Origin: Coniferiporia sulphurascens
Taxonomy: Eukaryota > Basidiomycota > Agaricomycetes > Hymenochaetales > Hymenochaetaceae
Assembly: GCA_002794785.1 (NCBI GenBank)
Contig: NBBA01000008.1
Location: 1,612,001 to 1,676,000 of the forward strand
Reading direction: 5' to 3'
Length of the DNA: 64,000 nt
The translations under genes were made by a program, and so were the position numbers. How positions within the stretch are numbered: position 1 is the stretch's first letter; each line of letters begins with the position of its first letter. The notes under the pieces are model-generated. The model was not told where the DNA came from. It saw only the letters and a list, made by a program, of their open reading frames with translations, and searched no databases. Of this stretch, positions 11,954-63,174 are shown in pieces.

Positions 11954-11984
<31 letters not shown>

Positions 11985-22799: not shown

Positions 22800-22881
22800 C
22801 CTGACTAAAGGGCGCCCTTGCGGGGCCCAACATATGCATGTACCTTCCTCGGGATATGGGGCCCAACAAACCCCTCCCGCT
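22800..22881 (-). mobile_element. N1 3' end (chimera A)
   Basis: The last 82 bp of an N1 subtype-1 module (ending CCTTTAGTCAGG), fused to the LINE-B RNase H piece in the same orientation. Its upstream part is displaced by the N1 copy that starts at 22882. Confidence 0.8.
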
Positions 22882-24071
22882 CATCCTTCTTGTCCTCTTA
22901 CCACCACCATCTCTGGTTTTCACTGGGGGTCATCTGGGGGTTTGTCACAGCAACCCGTACTCTGGTCTGGTATACTACTGGGTCAATATGAGAGAAGGCT
23001 ACCGACTGCACACCGGTCTTCCGGAGTGTGCGCTTACTGGTCGTCCAGTCACTGTAACAGCAGTTTCGAAGATGCGAAAGGGGCTCTAGGGCTTGCCAGA
23101 GGGTATGCAACCTGTCGTTAACGTTGCATTGGGGGGATGACTCGGTGAGGATGATTCCTTTTCATGTCTGCTGCACCCTCTCGGGGTGCGGTGCCTCAAC
23201 TGGTCTGCTGGTCATGCCCTCAGGCCCAGTCAGCAGGGCAAGGTGCAAAGTGCGCCAGTCAGGGGGGAACATGACAATAATGTTTCCATGGGAGTTGGGA
23301 AACCCTCTGCCCACTAGCGGTCAGTGAAATCCGGGAAACCTCGGTTTTGGCGAAAGTCGGGTCTAATCCTCCGGGATTGATGCGCTTGCATTGAGGCTGT
23401 GATGACTGGCATGTCATATCAAAAACTGCTCCCCAAATTCCCAAAAGGGTCTCTGATGACAGCACTAGTTGCTAAAAGGAGATAGGGGTCTCATAACACA
23501 TGGCATGGCGGTAATAACCATCCGATGCAGAAATGCGACAGGACACCATGGGCCTCTCGGGTGGGACGGGCCCCCTTGAGGTGGTTAGTAAGAGGCACTC
23601 CCTGGCGGCTGTAAAAAGTGTCGGGGTCCACCCCTCTGCGACACGGAGATTCTGGTACGCTGTGGATCCAGAAGCAGGAAAACCCTTAAATGCGGGCCCC
23701 GAGTATTCCCCGTGGAGCGTGTTGGGGTAACACCTGATGCTGATGTGGGTTCTGAAGCGCGTGCCAGGGCACGGGAAACTCAGTGCACTGAGCGGGCCGT
23801 AGCAGCAGGGGATAGTTCCCCCTGTTGGCTTGAGAGGACTAAATCCTCCATGGGTTCTAATGGGGGTAATTCCCATTCGGGCTTAAGTTGATTCCTTGAC
23901 ACGCAGCAGCGCTTCACATCACCAAGCAGGTACGGGGGGGCGTGAGTCCAGGCAGCTGGGGGTGGTGGGGTAGTGCCTACGGTGCCACGACCCTCACACT
24001 ACACCTCTGGTGCATTGGGTAGCTCTAATCTCACCTTTAGGCCTGTGCAGCATGAAGGACAGTGGGAGGGG
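22882..24071 (+). mobile_element. N1 module, subtype 1, plus strand
   Basis: Starts CATCCTTCTTGTCCTCTTACC and runs 1.19 kb to GGGAGGGG, where a LINE-C tail interrupts it. Moderately GC-rich, with no LINE domain and no ORF conserved among N1 copies. An inverted copy at 25863-26717 (plus 43935-44340) is nearly identical; in the part I aligned the three differences are all at CpG. It contains a 134-codon antisense ORF shared with that copy but not with subtype 2. Best description: a non-coding retroposed module. Confidence 0.8.
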
Positions 24072-24540
24072 TTTTTTTATTTTTATTTTTATTTTTTAAA
24101 TTTATTATTCCTGCAGTATTACATAATTACAAGCTGCCCCCCTGAAGGGGGGGCCCTAACTACATAACAACGGAGGCACCCATCATCGCGCATCTCACAA
24201 AACTGGGCGGGGGCTCTGCTCCCTAGAGGGGTGCCATAGTGTGAAGAGCCCCTATTTAGTAAGTAAAAGGGAAGAAGGAGGGATACATATCGCTACAAAC
24301 AAACTGAGTGGTTAAGGGCAGGTTAAAGTAAGAAGCTTAGAAATGGAAAGGGAGGGCGAGAGCGCCAGCTGAGACGTATTCCAGGGAATTTGAAAGGCAG
24401 TCGCTAGTCAGTGGGAAAGGGGGGGAGTGTACCTGCAAGCTCCAAAAGGGCTGGGTTCGAGTCCTGAGTTCTGGGTCTGAGCATATGACGCATGTAATCC
24501 CATAGGAGGTCCAAGTCCATATCCCCATCCTTCCCCCACC
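24072..24540 (-). mobile_element. LINE-C 3' tail piece (chimera B)
   Basis: Tail (T/A-rich, 24072-24107), conserved 3' end CTGCAGTATTACATAATTAC, 3' UTR, and the last codons of ORF2 up to the GATATGGACTTGGAC block. At its 5' side it continued directly into N1 (now at 25863) before a plus LINE-C piece inserted at 24541. It is therefore an N1 module fused to the last 0.47 kb of LINE-C. Confidence 0.8.
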
Positions 24541-25523
24541 TGTGCCACAGCCACAGACGCGGAGGAGTTTTCCCTCGCCACGGCCCCAGGCTGGGTAGCA
24601 CACCATCTCCCAGCGCAACTGCGTGTCGCATTGGATGTCTTCTTTCTATCTGATTCGCTGACTACACTTCACCTTTTCCGAACATGGGCCGCCGCCCCCG
24701 GCGCCCACCTCCTCCACATTTGGAAAGTGGGTGTGGAGACTCTGCTGGACTTGTACCCCCAGCTCACCATCCATTTCGCATGGTGCCCTGGACACTTGGA
24801 CATCCCCGGAAATGAATGGGCTGACACAGAGGCAAAGCTGGCAACTGAGCTCCCCCCATCTGACCTCAAACCCTCCACCTCCACCCTAAAAGAAGCAGCC
24901 ATCTGCACCCTCATGGAACGATGGACGCTCTCACTAGCCTGCCCCCTCGCCTCGACAGCTGATAAATACCTGGCAGTCCACGGCCTACCATCATGCTGAC
25001 CCCAAAAGCTCCTCATGCATTCAGTCGACCACCCATGAAATGAACTATCCGCAGTCACGCCGGTCCCTACGGGGGATACTGGCTGAGCTTTGACTCGGCC
25101 TACCGCCGCAGGCGCGGCCTGATCTCGCACTGCAGATGGCACAACCACCCCCCCTGGCCAGCGCAGTCAACCGCCCACATCCTCGGTGGCTGTAGCACCT
25201 TCCACTCGTGGATACGACGCATGTGGCCACCTCGGGACCCTCTCCCAGTCCACCACTCTGAGTGGGCTGACAAAAACCGCCTCCCGGTTCTGCGCCATTG
25301 GCTAAGGCTAACGGGACATCTCAACCACCTTTCGGAACACGCAGCAGGTGCCATACGGCTATCCTTTGCCACAATGGACCTGGATGGGCACCCCACTGAC
25401 GAGGATATGGACTTGGACCTCCTAAGGGAATACATGCATTGTATGCTCGGACCTCAAACCCAGGACTCGGACCCAGCCCTTTTGGAACTTTCAGGTATGC
25501 TCCCCCCCTTCCCGCTCGAGTAA
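24541..25523 (+). pseudogene. LINE-C RNase H and ORF2 C-terminus fragment
   Basis: Starts in the RNase H domain at the DAEEFSLATAPGW motif, followed by SDSLTTLHLF and WCPGHLDIPGNEWAD, so the first catalytic Asp strand is missing by truncation. TGA at about 24998 and a lost segment near 25053 break the frame; it recovers at GYWLSFDSAYRRRR and ends DSDPALLELSGMLPPFPLE at 25523. Confidence 0.85.
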
Positions 25524-25816
25524 AAGCCTGCCCTTCGGAATCCTATATGATATGTCTCAGCCAGCACTCTCGCCCTCCCTTTCCACTTCTAAGCTTCCTA
25601 CTTTAACCTGCTTTCAACCACTTGGTTTGTTTGTAGCGATATGTATCCCTCCCTCTCTCAGTTTCATTACTAAATAGGGGCTCTCCACACATCGGCACCC
25701 TCCGGGGAGCAGAGCCCCCGCCCAGTTTGGTGCGATGCGCCATGATGGGCGCCTCCGTTGTTATGTAGTTAGGGCCCCCCTTCAGGGGGGCAGCTTGTAA
25801 TTAGATAATACTGCAG

Positions 25817-25817
<1 letters not shown>

Positions 25818-25851
<34 letters not shown>
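25818..25851 (+). repeat. AAT microsatellite tail
   Basis: About eleven AAT units at the 3' end of the LINE-C insertion. All LINE-B and LINE-C 3' ends carry a version of this tail, so it is made at insertion rather than being host sequence. Confidence 0.9.
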
Positions 25852-25855
<4 letters not shown>

Positions 25856-25862
25856 TCCCCAT

Positions 25863-26717
25863 CCTGACTAAAGGACGCCCTTGCGGGGCCCAACATATGC
25901 GTGCACCTTCCTCGGGATATGGGGCCTGACAAACCCCTCCCACTGTCCTTCATGCTGCACAGGCCTAAAGGTGAGATTAGAGCTACCCGACGCACCAGAG
26001 GTGTAGTGTGAGGGTCGCAGCACCGTAGGCACTACCCCACCACCCCCAGCTGCCTGGACTCATGCCCCCCTGTACCCGCTTGGTGATGTGAAGCGCTGCT
26101 GCATGTCAAGGAATCAACTTAAGCCCGAATGGGAATTACCCCCATTAGAACCCATGGAGGATTTAGTCCTCTCAAGCCAACAGAGGGAACTATCCCCTGC
26201 TGCTACGGCCCGCTCAGTGCACTGAGTTTCCCGTGCCCTGGCACGCGCTTCAGAACCCATATCAGCATCAGGTGTTACCCCAACACGCTCCACGGGGAAT
26301 ACTCGGGGCCTGCATTTAAGGGTTTTCCCGCTTCTGGATCCACAGCGTACCAGAATCTCTGTGTCACAGAGGGGTGGACCCCAACACTTTTTACAGCCAC
26401 CAGGGAGTGCCTCTTACTGACCACCTCAAGGGGGCCCATCCCACCCGAGAGGCCCATGGTGTCCTGTCGCATTTCTGCATCGGATGGTTATTACCGCCAT
26501 GCCATGTGTTATGAGACCCCTATCTCCTTTTAGCAACTAGTGCTGTCATCAGAGACCCTTTTGGGAATTTGGGGAGCAGTTTTTGATATGACATGCCAGT
26601 CATCACGGCCTCAATGCAAGCACATCAATCCCAGAGGATTAGACCCGACTTTCGCCAAAACCGAGGTTTCCCGGATTTCACTGACCGCTAGTGGGCAGAG
26701 GGTTTCCCAACTCCCAT
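25863..26717 (-). mobile_element. N1 module, subtype 1, 3' two-thirds (chimera B)
   Basis: Inverted near-copy of 23280-24071, completed by the 3' end CCTTTAGTCAGG. It is split at 26717 by the large insertion 26718-43920, whose TSD is TTCCCAACTCCCAT (26704-26717 and 43921-43934). The 5' part is at 43935-44340. Rejoined, N1 is about 1.26 kb. Confidence 0.85.
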
Positions 26718-27037
26718 TTTATTATTATTATTATTATTATTATTCCTGCAGTATTACATAATTACAAGCTGCCCCCCCAAAGGGGGGGCCCTAACTACAT
26801 AACAATGGAGGCACCTGTCATTGCACAACGCACAAAACTGGGCGGGGGCCCTGCTCCCCAAGGGGAGCCAGAGTGGGAAGGGCCCCTATTGATGATGTGA
26901 CAGAAAGAGGGAGGAATACGTATCACTACAGCCAAGCCAAATGGACAACATCAGGCAAAAGGGGGTAGCTTAGAAATGGAAAGGGGGGGCGAGAGCACCA
27001 GCCGGGACATACATGGGAGAGTCCGAAAGGCATTCAC

Positions 27038-27671
27038 AGAGCAGAGGAAAAGGGAGGAAGCGCACCTGAAAGCTCCAAGAGAGCCAGGTCCAGGTCCTAG
27101 GTATGGGCTCCAAGCATATGACTCATGTAATCCCGGAGGAGGTCCAAGTCCATATCTTCATCGGTCGGGTGCCCCTCGAGTTCCATCATGGCGAAGGCCA
27201 GGCAGATGAAGGTGGAGGTGTGGTCAGAAAAGCGGTTAAGATGCCCTGTCAGCTTAAGCCAGCGGTGCAGAACCTGGAGGCGGTTTTCATTGGCCCATTC
27301 GGCATGGTGGGTCGGAAGTGGGTCACGGGGGGGCCAGACCCTATGGATCCAGGGGCGGAAAGTGCGACATCCACCCAATACGTGGGTGGTCGACTGGGCT
27401 GGCCAGAGGGGGTGGTTATGCCATCAGCAGTGCGAGATCAGGCCGTGCCTGTGTCGGTAGGCTGAGTCGAAGCTCAGCCAGTAACCCCCATAGGGACTGG
27501 CATGACATAGAACCTGAGCGACTGCTGAGAGCTCCCAGCAGGGGTGGTCCACTGACTGTGTCATGAGCTTTTGGGGACGGCGGGAGGGGACACCGCTGAC
27601 AGCTAGGTACTTATCGGCTATCGAGGCGAGGGGACGGGCGAGAGAAAGGGTCCATCGCTCCATGAGGGTTT
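27038..27671 (-). pseudogene. LINE-B4 ORF2 C-terminus (left of Copia)
   Basis: Continues from RNase H across the Copia insertion: ERWTLSLARPLAS, KYLAVSGVPS, GYWLSFDSAYRHRHGL, WANENRLQVL, DLLRDYMSHMLG. The terminal ALLELSG region is present but the frame is shifted near 27355 and a stop lies before it. 3' UTR and tail follow to 26718, with the GC hairpin at about 26774-26792. Confidence 0.83.
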
Positions 27672-27929
27672 TATTAAATAAATATAACGAATGACATAAA
27701 TATAGTACGTGGTCATATGATCAACCACCTTACTAAGTGAACGATAACGCAACGATAACGCCATATGATATAGGAGCTAGATAGTTATAGTAGTACTAGC
27801 CCACGGAACGTGTATATAAGGAGAGCTGGTCTCATCCTAGAAATACATCGGTTTACACTGATAACCCACCTTTGCCTCAATCTCACCACTGCACCTCATC
27901 ATCTACCACAATGTGCATAGATTTTAAGA
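27672..27929 (+). repeat. Copia 5' LTR
   Basis: 258 bp, TATTAAATAA to TTTTAAGA. TATATAAG at 27813-27820 is the probable promoter core. It differs from the right LTR at six positions, five of them CpG sites. The ends are not the canonical TG...CA; they form a weak inverted pair (TATTAA and TTAAGA). Confidence 0.95.
27813..27820 (+). promoter_or_regulatory. Copia LTR TATA box
   Basis: TATATAAG in the left LTR, conserved in the right LTR and both solo LTRs. It places the transcript start near 27845 and leaves roughly 85 bp of R-U5. Confidence 0.7.
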
Positions 27930-27940
27930 GGTTATGAGCC
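27930..27940 (+). promoter_or_regulatory. Primer-binding site, initiator tRNA-Met half-molecule type
   Basis: GGTTATGAGCC follows the LTR without spacer. It is complementary to the anticodon stem-loop of fungal-type initiator tRNA-Met (GGCUCAUAACC), the site used by Drosophila copia, rather than to a tRNA 3' end. This also fixes the LTR boundary. Confidence 0.75.
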
Positions 27941-27998
27941 TTGACTCTACAACTAACGAAACGATTAATGAACATATACATCCTCGAATAACGAAATC

Positions 27999-30900
27999 AT
28001 GTCTGACAGACAGAAACCAAACACTTGTGAGCAAACACATTTGCAAAAATTATCAGGATTACGAATAATAGCTAACAAACTAAAAATAACGTACACACAG
28101 TCATCTACTATCGAAGAACTCGAAGAAAAAATTCAAAAAGCTAAAGATAGCAAAAGGTTAGTTGACCTAATACTTCAATGTAACCTAAGACAAATACCAA
28201 TTAATGGAACGGAACAACAAATACAAGATCGAATTAACAGGTATGATAATTCTACCAAAGATGAAAAATTAAAAATTAAAACTGATTATAAAATGGAACT
28301 AACGAATCACGCCAAAGATTTAGGAATATCAGATCAAGGAAAATCATCCGAAATCAGATACCGAATAAGTACGTATTTGGGCATATCAGATCCAAAAGAA
28401 AAAGAACAATTTAAAATTGATAACCCTTATATTAAGCCAGAAGAAGAAAGCGATAAGAAAGAAGACGACGATAAAAAAGAAGATAACAAAGAAGAAAACT
28501 CCGAAGAATCCAAAAATAACCCATCACGTGAGCCATCAGAACCATCTGATCCTGACGATTCAGATGCTAACGATACCGAGGAAGATGAACCGAGTATGGC
28601 AACTAAACTCGCGGAACTCCAGAAATTCTTTGACGGAATCGAGAAACTCGACAGGCACAGAAACTACAAACTCTGGAATTACAGAGTCCGCAGCGCAATT
28701 GAGAGTGCAGGTTACGGTAACCTGCTCATTAACTCCCCAGGAACTGGAGAGGCTGATATATCAAGCACTTTATATAACAGCATTATGTGCACTATGCCCA
28801 ACAAAATATTGGCTTATTATCTTAATTTCTCTAAAGATATTCCGGCGCTACTCAAAGCGCTTGACGGATGATATAATGTCCAGACAACAATTACAAAGGG
28901 CTTTAACAAGGCTGCCCTTTTTGATATCAGAGGTCATGTCAGCCATTTCGATGGAACGCTCGATAACCTCAGCAATAAATACGAGGAACTCATAGCCCAA
29001 GGGGTAAAAGTTTCAGAGTCGACATACATATCGGCTATTACGCGGGCAACGCCCGAACAATATCAATACGTACTCACGCAGAGTGAGTTATATATTAAAA
29101 CAATTAATGAAACGAACCCAGACAAAGATGAAATTGAACTAACCCCTCAATTCCTACTAACGGCACTAAGAAACACCTTCAAGGGGTGGTGTAAAAATCA
29201 CCAAAGGACAGGAGCGGCAGCTAACCACCTGCCCAAGGACGAGCGGAATCACCCCTATTTTAGGGGCCACGGACGTGGTAACAGCCGCGGAGTTCAACCA
29301 CGAGGTCGCGGCTATAGGGGCCGTGGAGGATACATGCAAGGACGAGGACAAGGGGGATATTCCCCTAACCAACAATCACACGTTATTAAGTGCTATAATT
29401 GTAACAAACTAGGGCACTTTAGTCGAGACTGCTGGGCGCCAAAAATGGAATGGACGAAGGCAGCTCAGAAGAAAAAAGAGGACGCGAATGACGACAAAGG
29501 AAAAGGGAAGGAAATGGGTGCGTCAGCGGCACCGACAACGACTGGGGCAAGTGCGGCCCAGGCTAAACATACCGCAGCATCAGCAGCAGCAGCAAACATC
29601 ACATTGAGCTCTCGAATCGAGTTAAGCGCCGTAATTGGCCAAGGCGAAATCGGCGCCTTCATAACCGAAGTCGATGACAACGATTTCGACATGGGAGAAT
29701 TCCCAATATATTCATATAATGACTTCCTTGACAAAATAGGAAATTATGATAGCGCCATGGAAGACGTAAATGACAATAATTTGGATGTAAGCATTAACGC
29801 TATTACAACAGAAGAAATTGCTAACAACATTTATTCCTCAATGGATATAATTGATACTGGTGCAACGATACATCTAACACCATATCTAAATCGATTACGA
29901 AACACATACAAAACCGACACAATCACGATAACGGCTGCAAACAAAACAACATTTATGGCAAATATAGTAGGGGATCTTAAGCTTTACATCCCCAACGGAC
30001 ACTCAGTAAGTGTCATAATATTATCAAACGTATACTACAATCCTAAAATAAATATGACATTAGTCTCTCAAGGACTTCTATGTCAAGACAGCTATGAATT
30101 TATTTATAAAGAAAACAAATGTACAATAAAGTATCCTAATGGATCTTTATGTGGAAAAATCATAAATAAAAATGGATTGTATAGTATATTTAATAACAAT
30201 GTACAAGTGGCTACAAAAAATGTAACATTATTTGAACTTCACAAAAAACTCGGGCATATAAGTTATGCTTACATAAAACGATTATTAAAAGAAGATAAAA
30301 TTACAAATAATAACATATCAAATTACGACGAAACTCAATGCACAATCTGCATAGAAGCAAATATTAAAAGAATGCAAATTCCAAAATTATGTACTTCAAA
30401 ATTAGCCGAAAAATTTGGCGATCATATACATATGGACATATGGGGTCCAGCATCCACACATTCAATAGGAGGATATAAATATCTTCTAACACTTGTAGAT
30501 GACGCTACAAGGTGGATAAAAATGATTTTATTAAAAACAAAAGACGAGGGCTTAAATGCTTACACAACATGGGCTACAATGCTCAACACACAATTTAACA
30601 TAAAAATAAAAATATTACAAAGCGATAATGATACAATGTTTTTAAGCAAACAATTCACTGAATATTTAGAAAAACATGGAACAATACGAAAGCTGACTGT
30701 TCACGATATGCCACAACAAAATGGAGTAGCAGAACGATCACATCAAACGATTTTAAATAATACACAAGTAAATCTGCTACAAGCAAAATTACCACCCAGT
30801 CTATGGGGAGAAGCTGTAAAATACAGTACTTACGTTTACAATAGAATGCCAAAGAGCGCTATTGATTTTAAAACACCATATTTTAAACAATATAACGAAA

Positions 30901-32848
30901 ATTATAACATTGATGATCTAAAAGAATTCGGCCAATATTGCATTATACGACAAGAAGACATTAATAAATTACAACCAAAAGGAAAATATGCACAATGGCT
31001 AGGATTTGATGAAGAAAGCAAAGGTCATAGAACCTATAATAATAGAAAAATTACAGTCGAACGAAATTTACAATTTTTAGACTCTTCCCCATCTAAAATT
31101 GAAGGGGAGAATATAACAGAAAAACAAAACGAGCAAATAAAAGAATTAACAAATGAAAGACCAATAAGAACTATTAAACCAACGAAACGATCATTAGGTC
31201 TAAACTTTGACAAACAAAATACAGTCGCTTATCTTATGGAATTTAATCAATTCAATACGGAATTAATAGGCGATCCTAATTCATATCAACAAGCAATCAA
31301 TAGAATCAATGCAAATCAGTGGATCACGGCAATGAAAGAAGAAATAAAAATGTTAATCGAAAGATCTACATGGAAAATCATTGATCCACCAAAAGAAGCA
31401 AACATAATCGGAACAAGATTCGTTTACAAAACAAAAAGATTAGCAAACGGAGAAATCGAACAATACAAAGCAAGATTAGTAGTTCAAGGATTTGCCCAGA
31501 AAGAAGGCATAGACTACTATTCAAATGACACATTCGCTCCAGTAGCACGATTAGCTACAGTAAGAACTATATTAAGTTGGAGCACAACAAACAATTATGA
31601 AATTCACCAAATCGATATTAAATCAGCTTACTTATATGGTGAATTAGAAAAAGACGAAAATATATACATAAAACCACCACCAGGAAATTTAATCATAATA
31701 AAACCTGGACAAGTTTTAAAATTAAATAAAGCCTTATACAGATTAAAACAAGCAGGCAGACGATGGTATAAAAAATTATCTGAAATATTAATTGGAATAG
31801 GACTAACACAAGTGTCCAAGATAACGCAGTATTCCTAAGAAAAGTAAAAGGAAAAACAATTCTAATACTTTTCATACATGTTGATGACATAACAATATGT
31901 GGCTTAAATCTATTAATAATAAAAGCCTTTAAAGATGAAATAGGAAAACATGTAAAATTTACTGATGGAAACGATATACATTGGTTACTCGGCATTGAAA
32001 TCGAAAGAAACTGAGATGAAAGAATTATAAAATTAAGACAAAAACATTATATTGATAATATAATAGAAAAATATAAATTAAAAAATGCTGCAACGGTATG
32101 AACACCAATGACACCTGGTCAAGTGTTAAAATCACTCGAAAACCCAACTAATGAAGAATTAAACTTCATGAATCAAATACCGTATATGAACATGGTTGGA
32201 GCATTATGATATGCAGCAGATTGTACAAGACCTGACATATCATTCGCAACAGGTCAATTTGCTAGGCATTTAAATAAACCTAGTATTGAACATTACAATG
32301 CAGTAAAACACTGCTTCAAATATTTAAAAGGAACGAATGATTATTGGTTAATACTCGGAGGAAAAGAACCAATCGAGTTAATCGGATATACCGATGCTGA
32401 TGGAATGACACAAGAAGGCCATAAAGCAATATCAGGATATATATTCCAAATAGGAAACGCAACGACATCATGGTCAAGTAAAAAACAAGAATTAGTGTCA
32501 TTATCAGTATGTGAAGCGGAATTACAAGCTTTAACTCATGGAGTAAAAGAAGCTATATGGCTAAGAAGACTGGTTGAAGAGGTACTGCAGACCTTGGATA
32601 CACCTACGAAAATATTATGCAATAATCAAGCAGCCATAACTATAGTAAATTCAACAGAACAAAAATATATGCAACAAACAAAACACATAGATATACGAAA
32701 AGATTTCTTATGAGACTATATTGAAAATGAAATCATAACAGTTTCATATATTCCAACTGGACAGCAAAAGGCTGATATTATGATGAAAGCGCTAACGATC
32801 GAATTAATCAAACATTTTACAAGTCTACTCTGCCTAGTAAAAGTTTGA
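27999..32848 (+). pseudogene. Copia gag-pol, five stops and one frameshift
   Basis: One frame of about 1,617 codons. Gag: three SAP/HeH-like helical repeats (28044-28385), a very acidic Glu/Asp/Lys/Ser linker (28436-28600), a gag core, an RGG-rich stretch (29260-29370), and a CCHC knuckle CYNCNKLGHFSRDC (29391-29432). Pol: protease DTGA (about 29853), integrase HHCC and DDE regions (30240-30760), RT with HVDD (about 31880), and RNase H with YTDAD and SKKQE (32380-32560). TGA at 28869, 32012, 32099, 32207 and 32711; a one-base loss at about 31820 shifts the frame inside RT. At 32207 and 32711 the family residue is Arg, so CGA to TGA is likely. Enzyme residues otherwise look preserved, so decay is recent. 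Confidence 0.93.
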
Positions 32849-32855
32849 AGGGGAG
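32845..32855 (+). promoter_or_regulatory. Polypurine tract
   Basis: TTGAAGGGGAG immediately before the right LTR; it would prime plus-strand DNA synthesis. It overlaps the end of pol (stop TGA at 32846-32848). Confidence 0.85.
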
Positions 32856-33113
32856 TATTAAATAAATATAACGAATGACATAAATATAGTACATGGTCAT
32901 ATGATCAACCACCTTACTAAGTGAACGATAATGCAACGATAACGCCATACGATATAGGAGCTAGATAGTTATAGTAGTACTAGCCCACGGAACGTGTATA
33001 TAAGGAGAGCTGGTCTCATCCTAGAAATACATCGGTTTACACTGATAACCCACCTTTGCCTCAATCTCACCACTGCACCTCATCATCTACTACAACGTGC
33101 GTAGATTTTAAGA
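32856..33113 (+). repeat. Copia 3' LTR
   Basis: 258 bp, paired with 27672-27929. Followed by GGTTT (33114-33118), after which LINE-B4 resumes as TTGACAG. The uninterrupted site AGGGTTTTGACA is seen in other LINE-B copies. Confidence 0.96.
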
Positions 33114-33118
33114 GGTTT

Positions 33119-35360
33119 TGACAGTGACCTCTTTCAGTGCAGAGGTGGAGGGTGCGAGGGGAGATGGGGGGAGATTCATTGTGAACTTAGCCTTGCGGTC
33201 TGCCCATTCATTCCCTGGGATGTCTGAGTGACCCGGGCACCAGACGAAATGAACAGAAAGATCCGGGTAAGAGTCCAAGAGAGTCTGGACCCCTGCCTTC
33301 CATTGGTGGAGGTGATGTGCACCTGGAACTGGCGCCCATGTTCAGATCAGGTGGAGTGCTGTCAGTGAATCCAACAAAAAGAAGATGTCAGATGTGACCG
33401 GCAGGTGCTCCTGGAGATGGTGTGTGGCCCAGCTAGGTGCGGAGGTGAGAGAGAAAATTTCTGCGTCCGTAGCTGTGGCACAGGTGGGGGAGGCAAGCTG
33501 GTGAGACTTGAGGTGGGTAAGGCCTTGCATGGCGCAGACTGCTGAACCGGATTTTGAGCCGATGCGGGAGCCATCGGTGAAAACCTGGAGATGGGGGAGG
33601 GTGCTCAGGGAGCACGCGGCACCCACAAATTCCTTGCGGGTGTCTTTGCTGACCAGAGTGATAGGAGTGGCAAACGAAACTCGACCATTTGTAAATGCCA
33701 GAGGATCCATCCACAGGGGATGAGTGTATGCAGGAACTGGTTGTACCCAGGGGACCCGGACCTGCAGAGAAGTGGAAAAGGGGCAGTTAGTTACTGATTT
33801 ATTATATCATTTTCTACCGATGGAGTGCAGGGTGTGCCAGAGGTGCAGAGAATGGAGGGTCTTAGCATATTCAAAATAATAAGAGAGAGGGGGAAGGGAA
33901 CAAAGAAAATTTGTTGAGAAAGGGGAGGTGCCTTTGTAGATGCCCAGAATTCATCTGCAGGCCGTGTTTTGCACTGCCTGCAGGCGGCTTACTAGTGTTT
34001 TTTGGTGCCGGCCATGGTACCACACCGGGGCGCCCCACATGAGGATGGAGCAGATGCAGGCAGTATACAGTCGACAGAGGAGAAGGGCCGAAATTCCGCG
34101 TTCCGTGTTGCCAAGGATGCGGAGGGCGGCTAGGGTGGAGAGGCCCTTGGAGCGCATGCGTTCCACGTGGGCCTTAAACGTGAGGGCGGGATCCCACCAT
34201 ATTCCCAGCCAGCGAAGCGGGATGGAGGGTCGGATTAGCGTGGTGGGGGCGACCCAGACCCCCGCAGTGTCCCAGTCGGTGTAGGCGGCTGAGCAGCATC
34301 GGGGTGGGTGAAAGTGTTGGCACTCCGTTTTGGTGGCTTCGATGTTGAGACCAATTGCGCCAAAATGGGCATTGAGTTGGTGGTATGTGTTGGACAGTTG
34401 CTGGCAGTTGGATGCCATGCTGGGTCCGATGCATACAAGGAGATGGTCATCGACGTATGCCAGTGCGGTGGTGCCGGTTTGATGAAATTTCCGGAGGACC
34501 ACACCCACAAAGATCGTTGAGAGTATCGGGGATACCGGCGACCCTTGGGGGGTACCGAGGTCGGGTTTCTGGGCAGTTGGGAGGGTAGTGCCATTGAAGG
34601 CAATAGCTACCTGCCGATCCGTCATGAAGGACAGACACCAGTTCGCCATGTCCGGCAGACACTGGAGGTCCAACAATTGCCAGTGAAGGAGTTGGGGGTT
34701 TACCAAGTCAAAGAAACCTTGTATGTTGACTGCGAGGGCTGAACAGACTTGGCCCTCAGCATGGGCTTGTTCCGCAATCTGAAGGAGGTGCTGGGCAGCA
34801 TCGTAGATGGAATGTCCTTGACGCCCCCCATATTGGTTAGGTGGCAGCCAGTTTCTCATGTTAGCGAGGAATTGGAGCCAGTTAGCAATGATCTTTTCGA
34901 GGAGTTTCCCTAAGGTCTCTTCGAGGGAGATGGGTCGGTATGAGTGGGGTGAGAAAGGGTCCTTCTTGTTTGGCTTCTGAAGCATGACCACTTTTGCCGA
35001 CTGCCAGCACTTAGGGTGGTGCCCCATGTGCAGGCAGTCATTGAAAAGGGCGAGGATCTCGTTTGGGTAAGCATCTACTACTCATTTTAAAGGGCGGTAT
35101 CCGATCCCTGAGAGGCCCGGAGCTGACAAGTTGGAGGTGTTGGACAGTGCCCCCGTAAGCTCCGTGAGGAGGATGGGTGGGGCAGCTGGTTGGGGGGGGG
35201 CGGTGGTGTGTCAGCCGCTTGTCATGGTGGCGGGGGTGTGAAGAAAGTAGTGCAGAAGAGCTCACCTTTCTTGGTGTCGGACTGGGTGAAGGTACTGTCA
35301 TGCTTTCTGAGCGAGGGGATAGGTGTAGGTCGGTTGCCGAGGCCACGTTTGGCCCAGCCC
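33119..35360 (-). pseudogene. LINE-B4 RT and RNase H
   Basis: Middle of ORF2 between Copia and LINE-B5. RT is open over 358 codons (33951-35027) with SYRPISLEETLGKLLEKII, DIQGFFDLVNP, GTPQGSPVSPILS and YVDD. RNase H (33119-33710) has FTDGSRIG, DAEIFSL, LDS (for SDS) and GHSDIPGNEWAD. Breaks: ATC in place of a Trp codon near 33953, a stop near 35080, and a frameshift in the connection region. The linker at 35100-35360 is interrupted by LINE-B5 at GTTTGGCCCAGCCC. Confidence 0.87.
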
Positions 35361-39197: not shown

Positions 39198-39529
39198 CTG
39201 CCTTTCAGACTCTCCCACATATGTCCCGGCCGGCACTCTCGCCCTCCCTTTCCAATTCTAAGCTACCCCCTTTACCTGCCCTAACCCGCTTGGTTTCACC
39301 ATAGCGATATGTATTCCTCTCCCTGGCTCTCCTTTTACTAATAGGGACCCTTCCCACTTTGGCATCCTTCGGGGAGCAGGGTCCCCGCCCAGTTTCATGC
39401 ATTGTGCGATGATGGGCGCCTCTGTTGTTATGTAGTTAGGGCCCCCCCTTTGGGGGGCAGCTTGTAAATTACGTAATACTGCAAGAATAATAAAATAAAA
39501 TAAAATAAAATAAAAGTTTGGCCCAGCCC

Positions 39530-40656
39530 CAGATGTTGGAGGCGTCTGCCTGGTCTGCTTGCTCAGCGTAAAAGTTTCACTTTGCTGCTCGGATGCCCTG
39601 CTTAAAGGCACGGTGGGCTGCTGACCGTTGAAGGGGGGTGGCGGCCATTGAAATTGCCCTTAGGAGCACTTTGCATGTCGGGGTCCACCAAGGGACCTCA
39701 GTTTTGGATGGCTTGGTGATTCAGGTGAATGGGGTGAGGGCTGCAATCATAGAGTCGACCACAGCCTGTGCTTTGATGTCTAGGGTGAGGGTGTCATCCG
39801 CCTGTAGTGTGAAGGCAGTTTTGAGTAGTGGAAAGGTGATATCGGTCCACTCCTCCCTGTCGGCCGGTGTTAGCCAGTGGGTTTTGGCAGTAGGAGGCAG
39901 GGGCCGAGTCGGCAACGACCAGTGTATGATGGCATGGTCGGATAATGTGGAGGTGGTTGAGGTGCCTGAATCTAGAATAGAGTCGGGGTTGATTGCGGGA
40001 GGGGACCAGATCATGTCAATTGGGCACCACCAACAATTGTCGACAGGCCTTGAGTCCGAGTCTGGGAGGTGGGCTGGCGCAAGGCCGTGCTCCCGGAAGA
40101 AGTCATTGAGAGGTTGCACTCTCAAGTCCTCCTGCCAGGAAGCAAGTAGTTTGGACCATGAGTGGTGGCGACGGTTAAAGTCGCCTGCCACCAGGAGAGT
40201 GGATGCCAATGCCAGTGGAATTGCAAAGAGAAACAACTCACCAGGGTAGAGGGGGGTGGCCATGGTGCGGTCCAGTGCATGCATGCCATAGTAGTTGCAG
40301 AGGCAGATCGTCCACTGGGAGTGGATTTCGATGGTGAGTACATCGGTGCCGGAGGATGTGGCACCGAGGACGGACCAGGCGGTTGATGGGATGGTCCGGG
40401 ATACATACATTACGACCCTTGGCCAGGTGGCTGGGGGAAGCACGGCTATGTAACCTGGAAGGGACAGGATGTTGAGAACCGGCATGCCAGCTGGGTCAGT
40501 GAGTGAGGGTTGGAGGCCTATTTGGTACCAGGGCAGTTCCTGTATCAAAATGATGGTGGGTGGGGATGGGTCAGTGGTGAGGATCAGGATAAGGGAATGG
40601 ACCGCAGCTAGAGAGCAAGCGGCATTCCACTGAAGAATAGAGATGTCCCTATTCAT
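39530..40656 (-). pseudogene. LINE-B4 ORF2 endonuclease and linker
   Basis: Starts at 40656; open for 311 codons with ILQWNAACS, LIQELPW, NYYGMH, VAGDFNRRHHSWS, CPIDMIW and LSDHAII. The stop at 39721 is TGA where relatives read CGA (FTRI). A second TGA is at about 39577 (AAKRNFY in relatives). The linker meets LINE-B5 at 39530. The ATG would overlap the ORF1 end by ATGA as in the other copies. Confidence 0.88.
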
Positions 40657-42686
40657 TGGTCCTCCATAATTTCGTCGTTGGTACCTTCAACAGCCTCGAG
40701 GATTTGGCGGAATCGCCGTTTCTTGGGGCATTAAGGGAGGGTGGTGGGGTGGTCGCCTTTGCAGTTCATGCAGTAGCGAGGGTGAGGGCACTGGTCGCCC
40801 TCAATGGCTTTGGTTGCACAGGATGCACACGACTTATGGTGGTTGTGGGAGAGATGACCTCCTCCACAGTCGGCGCAGCATGGCTGGGCTTGGCACCCTT
40901 TCGTCCCATGGCCTAGGCCCTGGCAGCGCTCGCACTGGGTGAGGCTTGGGCGGTAAGGAGGGACGGAGAGGGAGAGGGAGGCGCTGAACAACCAAACTCG
41001 TGGGTGCTTGAGGAGCTGTGCACGAATTGATCTGTTGGGGTCGGAGAAGGAGAAAGCCATGGGGCACTTCTGAAGGGTCGGGAGGTGGTCCTCAGTGGCG
41101 GCAAAGTGGGGGTCGACAATGAAGTTGAGGGTGCGGAGTGCTGGGTTATTCCGGATTTCGGCCATCAGGGCCTTTGGGGAGATGGTGTGGCCGTTCTGGC
41201 CAAATAGGTAGTCCACACATGGCACCATGGAGATGTGGAGGGCGGACCGGGGGCGGACTCGGACTGGGGTGAGGGTGAACCGGGCGGAAATTTGATCGGC
41301 TGTTGCGGATAGGCACCTGTCGCGCATGTGGGCCACAAATGCCACTGAGTGTCGATCAATGATCATGTCGGTGGTGGGAGAGGCAGAGGAGGGGCGCTTG
41401 GCGAATGAGGTCACGAGATTTCCCTTCACATTGAAGGAGGATGCGAGGACCATGACCTGGTCAGCAGTGGGAAGGGAGGAGAAGAACTCACGGGCAGTGG
41501 CGGTGAGGCGCATGGCAGGAAGTTGCAGCTCCATCTTTGGGATGACGGCAGGGATTAGGACCAGAGTTGGGTCCTTGGTGTATACCAGGGGCGGGGGCGG
41601 AACCTGGTGTTGCTTCTTCTTCTTTTTGTGGGTCACTGTTGTGAAGACCATGCCCGAAGTCGGTGCAACCAGGTTGGGATTGGAGGCAGTGGGTGGGGCT
41701 GGGGCGGTTGCCACCTGGGCATAGGAGGGTGCTGGCACCACAGTGTTAGCAGGCTGGGCGGTGGTAGTGGTGGTAGCGGCCTGGGCCTTCTGGGGCTGTG
41801 GGGCCCGGGGCCCGGGCCGGTTGACCAGGGTTGAGACCTGTTGGGAGATGGAAGCTACTTCTGTGGATAGCTGTTTGACAATATTGGTCAGTGCTGCCAC
41901 ATCTGGTGAAACATTAGTGGTTCCGGGGGTCCTGGTGAGGGCAGAGGGTTGGGTGGCGGTGATCGGGGTCCTTTGTTGGGGGCGAACTGGGGCGAAGGGT
42001 GCTGGCAGGGAGGCTTCCGACCCCCCCCTTGCAATGTTGTAGGCCATCTCAATATTGTGTGAGATGATGTGTTGGGGGTCCTTCTCGTCCCTCAGAACAC
42101 TGGTGATGGTCTGTTGGATGTTCCAGAGGAGGTTGCCAACAAACTTAGCCGCTGCTCGGTCAATCTCTTCGGGATTGTAGTGGTGGGTCTTCCTGTCAAA
42201 GTCCTCTAGTGCTCGGGAAATGGCATACATGAAGCCTGACATGTGCAGTTCGAACTGAGCTCGAGGGCAGGGTCGGGGGGTGTGCGGTGACAGGTTTTCG
42301 GATGACCTCTTGTTGGTGAGTGGCGGTGAAGGTGTGTGCAGGTTCTTGAGGATGTCCTCCATTTCGCCTGGCTCATTGGAGCTGGCCGGTGGGTTGGAGC
42401 CTTCGGACGGGGGGCGGCTGACATGCTCGAACGTGCAGGTGAATTCCATGTTCGTTACTCTGATAGCGGGGGAGGGTGCAAGGCGGAGCGTGTCTGGGGA
42501 CGACACTGGGAGGCCTGGGTCTATTTGGGCAGGGGTGGGGGTGGTGCCGTGCATAGCTGCGGCAACGTTGCCAGCAGCCACCCAGTTGGCGGCCCTGTCG
42601 GCATCGGTGCTGGCCAATGAGGGAGGTGGGAGGGGTGGTCGAGTTGAGCCAGAATTAAGAGCGCCCTTGCGGGACTCAGACAACAC
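40653..42686 (-). pseudogene. N1-LINE-B4 chimeric ORF1
   Basis: Open for 651 codons from an ATG at 42686 that lies inside N1: the first 13 residues MLSESRKGALNSG are N1-derived and then run in frame into STRPPLPPP, which in normal LINE-B follows MLNPSGYRNALR. The rest is complete: central domain SALHISMVPCVDYLF, CERCQGLGHGTKGC and the following Cys/His pairs. It stops at 40731 (TAA where relatives have a Gln codon), about 26 codons before the normal end. Function as for other ORF1 proteins. Confidence 0.85.
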
Positions 42687-43920
42687 ATGTACCTTCCTTG
42701 GGATATGCAGCCGACCAAAACTGCTCCCGCTGTCCTCTACGACATATGGGCGCTATATTGGAGCACTAGGGTAAGGCGTGCCGCGCCAGGAGGCCATCCC
42801 AGGTGAGGGTCGCGGTGCCATAGGCACTACCCTGCCCATGTGGAACAACCCCCCTACCCTACACATTTCCTCCCCGACCATAGAGGTCTTGTAGAGTACT
42901 GTTGCGCTTCTGGGAATCAACTTAAGCCCGTAGTGGGAATTACCCCCACATGAACTGATGGAGGATTTAGTCCTCTGGAGCCACTATGGGGGACTATCCC
43001 ACAGCGCTATGGCCCGAGACACTACACTTCAGCGCGCCAGGATGCCGACGCACACTCCATGCAGGCCCTTTCCCATGCCCTGGCACGTGCTTCAGAAACA
43101 GCCATTACAGCCGGAATACTCAGGCACCGAGGTCATGGGACAAGCGCCCAGTCAACCCCCAGCCCCCGCTTCTGGATCCACGATCATACCAGGATCTCCG
43201 TCTCACATACCCAACCCCAGTGGCAAAGCCATCCCAGGGAGTAAGGGATACTAACCACCTCAAGGGGGTCCAACCCACCCAAGAGGCCCATGGTGCCCTG
43301 TCGCCTTTCAGCGTCGGGTGGTTCTTACCGCCACGCCATGTGTTATGAGCCCCCTATCTCCTTTTAGCATGAGGTGCTGTCATCAGAGACCCTTTCGGGA
43401 GTTTGGGGGGGCAGTTTTTGATTTGTCATGCCAGGGACAACGCAGGCCCCGAGGTACCCAGGAGGGCATTGCTCAGCACCTGAAGGCGTGATCCGAGTTG
43501 CCCCAAACCAAGATCTCCCGACCGAAGTCGCCCGCTGCGAGGCAGGGGGTTTCCCCCCCCCCCCCCTGTGAGGACGTTAACGTCGTGTCCCCCCCCACCA
43601 AGCCCACATACAATGCAAGCCCAATGAGCACACCACCCTGAGAGAGCAGTGCAGACGCCAGAAGGATACAAGCTTACCGAGAATCCAACCAGAGGCAACG
43701 TTTTCGACAGGTTGCCATGACCACCGGCAAGCTCCGTGCCTGTTCCCCACCGCGTTATGGCGACCAACGACCAGCCCCAGCGCACTAGGGTGAGTCGGAA
43801 CCTTCTCTCGTACAATGCCCAGTCCCAGAGAGTCCAAGCAAGGTCGGGTAGCTGCGACTTCCCCCAGCCGACCCCAGTTGCAAAACCGAGATGGTGGTGG
43901 TAAGAGGACAAGAAGGGATG
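42648..43920 (-). mobile_element. N1 module, subtype 2 (chimera C)
   Basis: Starts CATCCCTTCTTGTCCTCTTACC at 43920 and ends CTTAATTCTGGC at 42648, fused to LINE-B ORF1. It shares blocks with subtype 1, for example TTAAGCCCG...GGGAATTACCCCCA, ATGGAGGATTTAGTCCTC, CGCCATGTGTTATGAG and CTGTCATCAGAGACCCTT, but with many indels. A 14-C run lies at 43553-43566. No conserved ORF. Confidence 0.8.
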
Positions 43921-43934
43921 TTCCCAACTCCCAT

Positions 43935-44340
43935 GGAAACGTTATTGTCATGTTCCCCCCCGACTGGCGCACTTTGCACCTTGCCCCACTGACCAGGCCC
44001 AAGGGCATGACCAGCAGACCAGTCGAGGCACCACACCCCAAGAGGGCATGGCAGATGTGAAGAGGAATCATCCTCACCGAGTTACCCCCCCAATGCAATG
44101 TTAACGACAGATTGTATACCCTCTGGCGAGCCCTAGAGCCCCTCTCGTGTCTTCGAAACCGCTGTTACAGCAACTGGACAACCAGTGAGCATGCACTCCA
44201 GAAGACCGGTGTGCAGTTGGTAGCCTTCTCTTGTATCGACCCAGTAGTATACCAGCCCAGAGTACGGGTTGCTGCAATGAACCCCCAGACGACCCCCAGT
44301 GAAAACCAGAGATGGTGGTGGTAAGAGGACAAGAAGGATG
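43935..44340 (-). mobile_element. N1 module, subtype 1, 5' third (chimera B)
   Basis: 5' end CATCCTTCTTGTCC at 44340. Continues the copy at 25863-26717 across the 17-kb insertion. Beyond it (44341) lies LINE-B6 RNase H sequence. Confidence 0.83.
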
Positions 44341-51855: not shown

Positions 51856-52085
51856 ATTTCCTCCATCTGATCTTCGATGGGGTTGGTGGTGAGGGCCTCT
51901 TCGATTTGGCGGTAATGCCTCTTCTTAGGGCAGGCCGGCAGGGTGGCTGGGTGGTCACCCTTGCAGTTGTTGCATAGGCGGGGGTGGGGGCATGTGTCGC
52001 CTTCGGGTACTGTGTCGGTTGCGCAGTGGGTGCACGATTTGCGATGGTTGCGGGTGAGATGGGCGCCCGCACACTCAGCGCAGCA
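51852..52085 (-). pseudogene. LINE-C3 ORF1 C-terminus
   Basis: Last 78 codons: CCAECAGAHLTRNHRKSC, CPHPRLCNNCKGDHPATLPACPKKRHYRQIEEAL, ending MEEI and a stop that overlaps the ORF2 ATG as ATGA. The upstream part is cut at 52085 and is probably LINE-C2 (20049-21881). Confidence 0.83.
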
Positions 52086-56558: not shown

Positions 56559-56813
56559 GACAAGGCCTTCTGAGTGGGCACACTCCACGATCTGTAAAAG
56601 GTGTTGGGCAGCGTCATAGACCGAATGTCCTTGACGCCCCCTGTACTGGTTGGGTGGCAGCCAGTCCCTTGTGTTCGTGAGGTACTGCAGCCGGTTAGCA
56701 ATTATCTTTTCGAGGAGTTTCCCTAGGGTCTCCTCGAGAGTGATGGGCTGGTATGAATGCAGCGAGAAGGGGTCTTTCTTGTTGGGCTTCTGGAGCATCA
56801 CCACTTTTGCCGC
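56559..56813 (-). pseudogene. LINE RT scrap
   Basis: 255 bp of minus RT: AAKVVMLQKPNKKDPFS, SYQPITLEETLGKLLEKIIANRLQYL, HSVYDAAQHLLQI. Joined on the left to LINE-C5 ORF1 and cut on the right by the 5' end of LINE-B7. Confidence 0.8.
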
Positions 56814-56871
56814 CATCCTTCTTGACCAGTAACCACCACCATCGACTAGTGCGGGCAGCTAAAACTCCCCC

Positions 56872-58898: not shown

Positions 58899-59152
58899 AT
58901 AGAGACATCTCCATTCTTCAGTGGAATGCTGCCCACTCTTTAGCTGCGGTCCATTCCCTCATTCCTATCCTCACCACTGACCCATCCCCACCCACTGTCA
59001 TTTTGCTACAGGAACCACCATGGTACCAAATCAGTCTCCAGCCATCCCTCACCAACCCAACTGGCACACCGGTCCTCAACATACCCTCCCTCCCAGGGTA
59101 CATAGCAGTCCTACCCCCAGCCACTCGGCCTAGGGTAGTCACCTATGTATCT

Positions 59153-60240: not shown

Positions 60241-60567
60241 AGCCTGCCTTTCGGAATCCCACACGATATGTCTCGGCCAGCGCCCATGCCCCCCCTTTCC
60301 ACTTCTAAGCTTCCTACTTTAACCTGCCCTCAACCGCTTGGTTTGTTTGTAGCGATATGTATCCCTCCTTCTTGCAGTTTCTCTTACTAAATAGGGGCTC
60401 TTCACACTTTGGCACCCCTTGGGGAGCAGAGCCCCCGCCCAGTTTGGTGCGATGCGCCATGATGGGCACCTCCGTTGTTATGTAGTTAGGGCCCCCCCTT
60501 CGGGGGGGCAGCTTGTAATTATGTAATACTGCAGGAATAATAATAATAATAATAAAATAAAATAAAA
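59153..60567 (+). mobile_element. LINE-C6, 5'-truncated insertion (1.4 kb), 12-bp TSD
   Basis: RNase H to tail of a LINE-C in LINE-B7. TSD ACCTATGTATCT at 59141-59152 and 60568-60579. The tail is AAT then AAAAT repeats (60536-60567). The 3' UTR shows the clearest GC hairpin (about 60491-60512, TTCG loop). Confidence 0.95.
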
Positions 60568-61903
60568 ACCTATGTATCTCACGCCATCCCCTCAACCACA
60601 TGGTCGGTCCTTGGCGCCGCCTCATCCAGCACTGACGTCCTTACCATCGAAATCTGCTCCCAAATAACCATCCGCCTCTGCAACTATTACAGTATGCATG
60701 CGCCAGACCATACCACCACCACCCCACAATACCCCAGTGAGTCGTTCCTTTTTATGCTCCCCCCAGTCTTGGCCTCTACTCTGCTCATGGCCAGCGACTT
60801 TAACCGTCACCACCACTCATGGTCCGAACTCCTTGCCACTCAGCAGGAGGACTTGAGGGCACAACCCCTTGATGACTTCTTCCAGGAGCATGGCCTTGAG
60901 CCAGCCCACCTCCCGGATTCTGACTCACGGCCCATGGACAATCATCGATGGTGCCCCATTGACATGATCTGGGCTCCACCTGCAATCAACCCCGATGCCA
61001 TTATAGACTCAGGTTCATCAACCACCTCCCCACTGTCCGACCATGCGATGCTACACTGGTCCCTGCCATCCCGGCCCCCCCCTCCAGTCATGAAAACACG
61101 CCGGCTGCTCCCAGCCGACAGAGAGGAATGGTCCGACATTGCCTTTCCACTACTTGAATCTGCCTTCCTCATATCAGCAGATAACCCCCTCACCCTTGAC
61201 GTCAAAGCGCAGACAGTGGTCGACGCAATGATCACTGCCCTTGCCCCCTTCACCAGAATTGCCAAGCCATCAAAAACCGAGGTCCCCTGGTGGACCCCAG
61301 CCTGCAAAGCACTCCTCCAGGCGATCTCAACGGCCACCACCCCCCTCCAGTGATCAGCAGCCCACTGTGCCTTTAAATGCAGTGTATGAGTGGCTAAACG
61401 GCACTTTTATGCCAAACAAGCTGACCAGGTGGATGCCTCCAACATATGGAGCTGGGCCAAACGAGGCCTCGGCAACCGACCCACCCCAATCCCCTCACTC
61501 AAGAAGTGTGACGGCACCTTCACCCAGTCGGACCTTGAGAAAGGTGAGCTCTTCTGCACTACTTTCTTCGCACCCCCCCCACCCCCAAAAGCGGCGCCCA
61601 CCCCACTGCCTCCCCCCCAACCAGCTGCCCCGCCCATACTCCTCACAGAGCTCATGGGGGCACTGTCCGACACCTCCAACTTGTCAGCTCCAGGCCTCTC
61701 GGGGATCGGCTACTGCCCACTAAAATGGGTGGTAGATGCCTACCCCGCCGAGATCCTTACCCTTTTCAATGACTGCCTACACATGGGGCACCACCCTAAG
61801 TGCTGGTGGGTGGCAAAAGTGGTAATGCTATGGAAGCCTAACAAGAAGGACCCCTTCTCACTGAGATCATATCGGCCCATCACCCTTGAGGAGACCTTAG
61901 GGA

Positions 61904-63172
61904 CATCCTTCTTGTCCTCTTACCACCACCATCTCTGGTTTTCACTGGGGGTCATCTCGGGGTTTGTTGCAGCAACCCATGCTCTGGTCTGGTATTCTAC
62001 TGGGTTGACATGAGAGAAGGTTCCCGACTGCGCACCTTTTATAAAGGAGTGCTGCTCACTGGTCGCTGAGGCGCTGTAGCGGCGTTGTCTGATGGCGCGA
62101 AAGGGGCTCACACCCGCCAGGAGGTATGCAACCCGTTGTTAACGTTGCAGTGGGGGGGGATGGCTCAGTGAGTACCAAGATCCTCTCTCACGTCTGCCGT
62201 GCTCTCTCGGGGCATGGTGCTCGGCTGGTCCGCCTCTCAGTGGCGCAAGGGGTGCATGCCTGCCAGTCAGGGGGGGACATGACATTAATGTCCCCACACC
62301 CATGCAGGGGGGGTAACCCTCTGCCCTTCAGCAGTTGGCTTCAGTCGGGAGACCTCGGGTTTGGGGAGACTCGGATCTGACCTTAGGGTCGGGACTTAAA
62401 ATCCTGGGGCCGCGTTGTCCCTGGCAAGACAAACCATAAAAACTGCCACCCCAAATCCCAAAAGGGTCTCTGATGACGGCACTAGTTGCTATAAGGAGAT
62501 AGGGGCTTCATAACACATGGCGTTGTGGTAAGAACCAGCCGACGCAAAAGTGACAGGCCACCATGGGCCTTTTGGGGGGGTGTGGCTGGCCCTAGCCCTT
62601 TTGAGGGTAGGCATTGGTGCCCCCCAAGAGGTGGTTAGTCAAGCGGACTCCCTGGCAGCCTCGGAAGAGATAGGCTGGGGTCCAAGCCTCTGGCGACACA
62701 TCAACTCCGGTATGCCATGGATCCAGAAGCGGGCCTTGTGCCTGAGTATTCCCCTTCGGGGCTCTGAAGCATGTGCCGGGGAACAGGAAACTCCGGGGGG
62801 GCCTAGGAAACCCCTCCATTATGGAGCGAGCTGTAGTGGTGGGGGATAGTTCCCTCCACTGGCTCCAGAGCACTAAATCTGGCATGGGTGTGTGTAGGAG
62901 TAAGTCCTATTGTGTGCTTAAGTTGATTCCCAGAAATGAGCGGCACTCTACAATGGAAAGCGGGGTAAGGGGGGGAATGTGTAGGGTAGGGGGGGCACCC
63001 AATGGGTGGGGTAGTGCCTACGGCGCTGCAACCCCCACTCGGAATGTCTCCCTGGCGCGGCACGCCCTTCCCAATCCAGCGTGTCGGGTGTAAGTCCTAC
63101 CGGTCAGGCTTCTATGTCACGAGGAAGGTGCACGCATAGTGGGGCCCCACAAGGGTGCTCTTTAATTCTGGC
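61904..63172 (+). mobile_element. N1 module, subtype 2 (chimera D)
   Basis: Starts CATCCTTCTTGTCCTCTTACC and ends TTTAATTCTGGC, directly followed by LINE-B 3' UTR (63173-63297). It shares blocks with the other N1 copies (AACGTTGCAGTGGGGGGG, CTGCCC...CGGGAGACCTCGG, AAAGGGTCTCTGATGACGGCACTAGTTGC). It contains TGGCTCAGTGAG, which resembles a polymerase III A box; I see no convincing B box. No conserved ORF. Confidence 0.82.
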
Positions 63173-63174
63173 CA

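Follow-up and report, generated by a model that had tools for sequence, protein, structure and literature searches.

The question raised by a 64,000-nt stretch of the Coniferiporia sulphurascens genome (contig NBBA01000008.1, positions 1,612,001 to 1,676,000; hereafter the window) is how a single non-coding module, here called N1, came to be fused to the 5′ side of long interspersed nuclear elements (LINEs) at different LINE positions. The window consists mostly of nested LINEs, as judged by self-comparison, and contains endonuclease (EN), reverse transcriptase (RT) and RNase H domains; the LINE ORF2 (open reading frame 2) frame at 3620-6079 has its top protein matches in Coniferiporia weirii, the best full-length one being 64% identical over 96% of the query. 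An initial annotation, made from the sequence alone, had described four N1-LINE joints and attributed them to template switching during reverse transcription, as for the MINE elements of Magnaporthe. Analysis of the window and searches of the genome (39.35 Mb, 31 contigs) show that the N1 fusion is real and strongly non-random and that this first reading was right in outline, although the system is richer than described: a terminal helix, a LINE-like first 30 nt of N1 and an extra subtype that lies away from the clusters and has mostly a different LINE family as its partner are new. We consider it very probable that the composites arise by template jumping in the manner of MINE, the enzyme leaving LINE RNA and resuming at the 3′ end of a discrete N1 RNA.

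All four joints (A to D), read letter by letter, are present in the window, and at each of them a LINE in sense orientation follows N1 directly (Table 1). The N1 3′ end reads CCTTTAGTCAGG at joint A, where it stops at 22800 (minus strand), CTTAATTCTGG at joint C (minus, stopping at 42649) and CTTTAATTCTGG at joint D (plus, stopping at 63171); joint B, at 25863 (minus), has the same N1 end type as A, and its LINE side was checked by eye. N1 5′ ends were found at 22882 (+), 44340 (-), 61904 (+) and, in the CATCCC form, 43920 (-). The motif CATCCTTCTTGTCC has nine matches in the window at up to 2 mismatches against 0.70 expected; three of these are N1, and six carry the GACC form, i.e. the LINE 5′ end.

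The composites are variously rearranged. Composite C is surrounded by an exact 14-bp target-site duplication (TSD), ATGGGAGTTGGGAA, which comes after a (TAA)n tail and had been correctly recognized in the initial annotation. Its insertion split the N1 of composite B after the first 420 bp (44340-43921), and the overlap of the two N1 parts of B is this 14-bp duplication. The LINE of composite C appears, from de-nesting by eye, to have been interrupted by two later insertions and to resume at about 33117-35357 and 26719-27671. Composite A is a 5′-inverted copy, N1 positions 1-1193 facing the last ~82 bp with the overlapping letters GGGAGGGGTTT; twin priming would presumably give an inversion with an overlap of this kind. 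The LINE part of A is cut at 21939 by the LINE 5′ end of a later insertion. At its end, the LINE part of composite D folds back on a minus-strand LINE 3′ untranslated region (UTR); in this fold-back (63167-63432) two LINE 3′ UTRs face each other (133 bp, 97% complementary) without A-rich tails.

Genome-wide, 120 N1 3′ ends were analyzed, 98 in short stretches from 172 listed cluster-type matches and 22 in the window and longer loci; the best-match search routine may skip additional N1 ends within one locus, as it did with window joint B. N1 enters a sense LINE directly in 118 of the 120. Neither unrelated sequence behind most N1 copies nor a single recurrent LINE position was encountered among these ends, which supports the template-switching reading, and the solo N1 copies that the initial annotation had proposed to look for could not be demonstrated among them. 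Placement on LINE references in sense was obtained for 114 ends, at positions 94 to 6221 (median 5495; coordinates approximate, mapped with fixed offsets), the median LINE part being ~765 bp. Another four (L044, L067, L085 and L115) also begin with sense LINE; the single antisense placement, in L044, arose from sequence farther on, the ~56 bases next to the joint being sense LINE. Locus L023 is interrupted after ~21 bases, and 19/21 bases past its joint agree with L022. At 2262 of L028 a subtype i N1 is joined to a 5′-truncated N1 of another subtype, possibly through a double jump.

The nucleotide context was compared in 118 joints (117 LINE joints and the N1-N1 joint of L028; L023 and L085 were dropped because of too few comparison copies). 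CC occupies LINE positions -3,-2 in 79/118 against a background of 0.143; taken singly, C is found at -3 in 93, at -2 in 102 and at +1 in 98 joints, and G is found at -1 in 73, where it makes a 1-nt match with the terminal G of N1. By 13-nt context there are 89 different sites, in agreement with the variable LINE position reported initially. Fifteen sites (10-nt context) were re-used; at 10 of them the joined N1 copies are of different end types, a pattern that speaks for repeated independent jumps at hot spots. Ordinary 5′-truncated LINE copies have CC at -3,-2 in 0/8 and 1/8 (Fisher p = 0.0003 and 0.004 versus the N1 joints) in two samples that are small and overlapping; the full-length copy at 35360 was left out of the 0/8 sample, and the CC-bearing copy of the 1/8 sample has a doubtful A-run duplication. 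On these counts CC as a general stop for reverse transcription was rejected. Base pairing between the N1 end type and LINE position -1 was not supported either, T at -1 occurring in 9/96 versus 5/22 joints, a trend only (p = 0.13, or 0.29 on unique sites).

Away from the clusters the N1 3′-end search yielded 25 identical 21-mers on 14 contigs, which two extended copies showed to be the 3′ end of a shorter subtype (iv, 980-981 nt). A sample of 20, comprising 19 of the 25 identical-end copies and the variant L141, has LINE-protein matches downstream in 12, and two more (L132, L143) overlap L142; the partner is mostly a LINE family other than that of the clusters. For ten joints, at 9 sites, an overlapping copy was available for comparison; CC stands at -3,-2 in 9/10 (in L138 counted from one of two comparison copies) and CCG in 6/10, with C at +1 in only 3/10.

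Target duplications lying next to N1 on one side and to the A/T-rich LINE tail on the other were detected in 6/20 loci, against 1/380 with swapped flanks, and surround the whole composite in L014, L016, L018, L022, L023 and L024. The claim that N1 and LINE were inserted as one piece is therefore borne out wherever a duplication is visible, in these six loci and in window composite C.

Table 1. Coordinates of the N1-LINE composites and associated features in the window
Feature	Position	Strand	Basis
Composite A, N1 subtype i positions 1-1193, inverted 5′ part	22882..24074	+	92% identical to full N1 of L015
Composite A, N1 3′ end (CTTTAGTCAGG at 22800)	22800..22881	-	letter reading
Composite A, LINE part from upstream of RNase H region	21940..22799	-	self-comparison and LINE placement
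Composite B, N1 subtype i positions 1-420	43921..44340	-	92% identical to L015 N1 1-420
Composite B, N1 subtype i positions 407-1261	25863..26717	-	92% identical to L015 N1
Composite B, LINE 3′ part: ORF2 region 3′ end, 3′ UTR, A-rich tail	24074..24524	-	self-comparison
Separate 5′-truncated LINE inserted at the B joint; short target duplication ATCCCCATCC	24532..25857	+	
Composite C, N1 subtype iii, complete	42649..43920	-	91% identical to N1 of L014
Composite C, LINE part from LINE position ~95	39516..42648	-	self-comparison and LINE placement
Composite C, 14-bp target duplication	3′ copy 26704-26717, 5′ copy 43921-43934	-	exact
Composite D, N1 subtype d, complete	61904..63171	+	87% identical to N1 of L016
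Composite D, LINE 3′ UTR part	63172..63295	+	self-comparison and letter reading

N1 itself is a module of ~1.0-1.3 kb, and the fixed 5′ and 3′ ends ascribed to it are seen both in the window and in genome-wide pattern matches. Patterns allowing up to 3 mismatches, by which decayed copies are missed, match the N1 5′ end 257 times, the LINE 5′ end 292 times and the LINE 3′ end 930 times, each with a control count of 0. The N1 3′ end types CTTTAATTCTGG and CTTAATTCTGG have 70 (control 1) and 69 (control 0) matches, and CTTTAGTCAGG has 33 at up to 2 mismatches and 60 in all (control 0). Among the matches listed, N1 and LINE form one block per contig, for example at 1.43-1.74 Mb on the contig of the window; by their resemblance to centromeric LINE arrays such clusters may be centromeric.

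Nineteen complete copies, spanning CATCC to the final GG, comprise 17 of 1191-1324 nt and two of subtype iv (980-981 nt). Groups among them are 59-82% identical to one another and 88-96% within, ii and d being closer (83-87%). Diverged subtypes thus exist as initially stated, but two was too low a number, since at least five are distinguished; the names i, ii, iii, iv, v and d are labels coined in this analysis. The 3′ termini read ...TTCTGG, GTCAGG or TGTTGG, and none mimics the LINE 3′ end in the manner of short interspersed nuclear elements (SINEs) or LINE-derived non-autonomous elements. The longest stop-free stretches extend over 55-195 codons per frame (six sequences). Rfam 15 gave no match for the whole window at gathering scores and, for five N1-bearing loci at E ≤ 5, three matches (E 3.4-4.6), none within N1; a tRNA scan of L047 and L048 returned nothing. 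N1 is a new partner sequence, as had been suggested, only in this sense of having no Rfam match. In subtypes d, i and v the first ~110 nt are nearly identical and divergence grows toward the 3′ end, as if N1 subtypes recombined. Seven subtype iii copies have 370/468 minor-state cells in CpG columns (234/1268 columns) and the other 98 spread over ~1034 columns × 7 copies, and their joints differ; as the differences are mostly at CpG, the copies appear young apart from CpG decay. This concentration points to methylation-linked decay or a process like repeat-induced point mutation.

The module has the marks of a structured RNA. RNAalifold applied to the last 300 nt of 15 N1 copies gave a helix set, of which five helices were counted on the alignment: 96.9% of 449 cells are paired, compared with 32-53% in slid controls that are partly biased because the structure was taken from the same alignment. 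Both sides have changed in 17/30 pairs, and the covariation score was reached by 0/500 shuffles. The terminal helix, in which the last 6 nt of N1 pair with an internal 6-mer directly after the invariant block AGTTGATTC, is found in 15/15 copies with 90/90 cells paired; 4/6 pairs have changed on both sides, and again 0/500 shuffles reach the covariation score. The pairings are TTCTGG/CCAGAA, GTCAGG/CTTGAC and TGTTGG/CCAACA, one copy having CTAACA and hence a G-U pair. Folded as a single strand, the last 75 nt are no better than shuffles (z -1.2 to +2.0), so that the structural claim rests on covariation; it is not based on the first hand-drawn hairpins (92.6% paired, both-side changes reached by 37/500 shuffles), nor were column-shuffle z-scores, which have a weak null, relied on. 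The covariation shows a predicted RNA fold that is conserved and closed at its 3′ end by a helix, and indicates a selected, folded RNA acceptor, not random debris. Such a closing helix would explain the fixed N1 end as the end of a closed RNA domain, and the terminus is of the kind that trimming or processing of an RNA would leave.

At the other extremity, N1 subtypes that otherwise differ strongly have almost the same first 32 nt, and 26 of the first 30 nt are identical to the LINE 5′ end. From its sequence, this common 5′ end may be an internal promoter. A dispersed family (L149, L150, L151) shares the 5′ end CATCCCTTCTTGATCTCTTACCACCACC and beyond the first ~33 nt matches neither the cluster LINE nor N1.

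Template jumping to N1 RNA would proceed as follows. N1 would be transcribed from its LINE-like 5′ end as a discrete folded non-coding RNA of ~1.0-1.3 kb. During target-primed reverse transcription the RT would stop part-way in LINE RNA, mostly just before CC(G) in the template, and jump to the 3′-terminal G of N1 RNA, aided by the 1-nt match; copying of N1 would then run as far as its 5′ end, and integration of the composite would leave an ordinary target duplication. For the related R2 enzyme of Bombyx mori, jumping is reported to be maximal with an overhang of 1, at most 2, nt complementary to the acceptor 3′ end (PMC8857657), a preference that fits the 1-nt match at the N1 joints.

The fusion could instead have been made between RNAs, N1 and LINE fragments being joined by ligation or by a ribozyme-like N1 3′ end and the fused RNA then copied. 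That N1 has a conserved structure, with a helix at its 3′ end, would suit such a reaction, and so would a joint motif unlike that of general 5′ truncation (CC in one or none of eight ordinary copies versus two thirds of the joints). The LINE bases before the joint, however, resemble the N1 3′ end by one G only, so that no exon-like exchange is apparent, the pairing of end type with LINE -1 is not supported (p = 0.13), and N1 contains no match to any Rfam family, including ribozymes; we regard this explanation as unlikely. Somewhat less probable still is the amplification of a few founder composites as units from the N1 promoter, the variety of joints being old. It would draw on the LINE-like 5′ end and on loci with joint and end type in common (L022/L023, L086/L088, L017/L018/L039), but is difficult to reconcile with 89 sites in 118 joints, with different N1 end types at 10 of the 15 shared sites, and with seven subtype iii copies of low non-CpG divergence that nevertheless have different joints.

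The 26 matching positions in the first 30 nt, and a joint C close to LINE position 95, might also be taken to mean that N1 is the true 5′ UTR of one LINE family and that the variable joints are internal deletions. Only 2/114 placed joints fall within the first 1000 LINE positions (94 and 981), and the LINEs carry a 5′ sequence of their own, different from N1; a fixed LINE 5′ UTR was rejected on joint positions, and we give this explanation very little credence. The fixed N1 3′ end would likewise be expected if splicing linked N1, as an upstream exon, to cryptic acceptor sites of LINE RNA, an idea that the joint sequences contradict, AG being present at LINE -2,-1 in only 4/118, and that we find scarcely credible.

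Several observations weigh against template jumping to N1 RNA as we describe it. CC at -3,-2 is lacking in 39/118 joints, and some joints may derive from a copied composite, L022 and L023 having the same joint and N1 end variant. No target duplication was automatically detectable in 14/20 loci (nesting, ends of fetched stretches). No LINE was assigned to the downstream parts of 6/20 dispersed subtype iv copies, among which solo copies may be hidden; of these, L048, L133 and L135 match only each other, the others being L136, L141 and L145. As to the RNA structure, two of five covariation measures are unexceptional: the number of further pair types, which 99/500 shuffles reached for the 30-pair structure and 128/500 for the terminal helix, and the number of both-side-changed pairs, which 22/500 reached when the terminal helix was taken by itself. 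Finally, a solo N1 gene was not encountered, which leaves the model without an established source of a free N1 RNA ending in this way. The RNA would come either from an unsampled solo gene or from processing out of composite transcripts, and in the latter case N1 would be a self-sustaining parasite of template jumping. We tentatively put forward, as a possibility somewhat short of even, that N1 is a selfish structured-RNA lineage spreading only as a LINE jump acceptor: it would have borrowed the LINE promoter-like 5′ end, mature its own 3′ end at the closing helix, possibly from composite transcripts, need no LINE tail and cap a large share of LINE insertions (257 N1 5′ ends beside 930 LINE 3′ ends), with subtypes accompanying different LINE families. 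The question thereby raised is whether an RNA can persist as a genomic parasite by template jumping alone.

Among the other features of the window, a Ty1/copia-type long terminal repeat (LTR) element at 27672-33116 is AT-rich (30-42% GC in 2-kb windows versus ~57% around) with end repeats of ~260 bp that are 97% alike; solo repeats of it lie at 7925-8184 and 50828-51087. GC is also lower than in the neighbouring LINE sequence at 1-2000 (0.44) and 10001-12000 (0.41).

Non-autonomous elements that share sequence with a LINE are familiar from trypanosomes, where NARTc has a 5′-terminal, probably promoter, module in common with L1Tc and ends in its own tail. N1, in contrast, itself lacks a LINE 3′ end and appears fused to a LINE in the examined copies. 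For fungi, titles and abstract openings in the open-licence literature revealed no chimeras of the N1 kind besides those of PMC2104539 and PMC3978060. PMC2104539 lists five features of LINE-made chimeras, namely a 5′ part that is a full-length RNA copy, a 5′-truncated LINE, variable truncation, direct joining in the same sense and flanking direct repeats. All five are found in the anatomy of N1 composites, with N1 as the putative RNA copy, which makes it well supported that N1 works like MINE. Mammalian U6-L1 and similar LINE chimeras, as presented there, likewise combine a full-length RNA copy with a 5′-truncated LINE and direct repeats, but their partners are cellular RNAs such as U6 and their truncation sites are described as random.

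The closest parallel is the Magnaporthe MINE (WEIRD-MGL), for which PMC2104539 gives 31 copies, a non-coding 5′ part of 1.1 kb and the switch motif GCC*A/U. N1 composites resemble MINE in the full-length non-coding 5′ part, the variably 5′-truncated same-sense LINE, the TSD-flanked unit and the lack of solo copies found, as well as in using some joint sites repeatedly and in having a C-rich motif in the LINE immediately before them. They differ in number, with 257 N1 5′ ends against 31 MINEs, in having several subtypes, and in the LINE-like 5′ end and 3′-terminal helix with compensatory changes. The N1 joint motif is CC(G)|C, its G common with the N1 end, and another subtype occurs mostly with a second LINE family; relative to GCC*A/U the CC is common, with a one-base offset, and the next base is mostly C, not A/U. 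As CC lies upstream both in Magnaporthe and here, with partners of different names, it may be a property of the enzyme and not of the partner. The Magnaporthe chimeras were described from about 30 copies, and the more than 100 readable joints described here provide a natural assay of LINE jump sites and acceptors.

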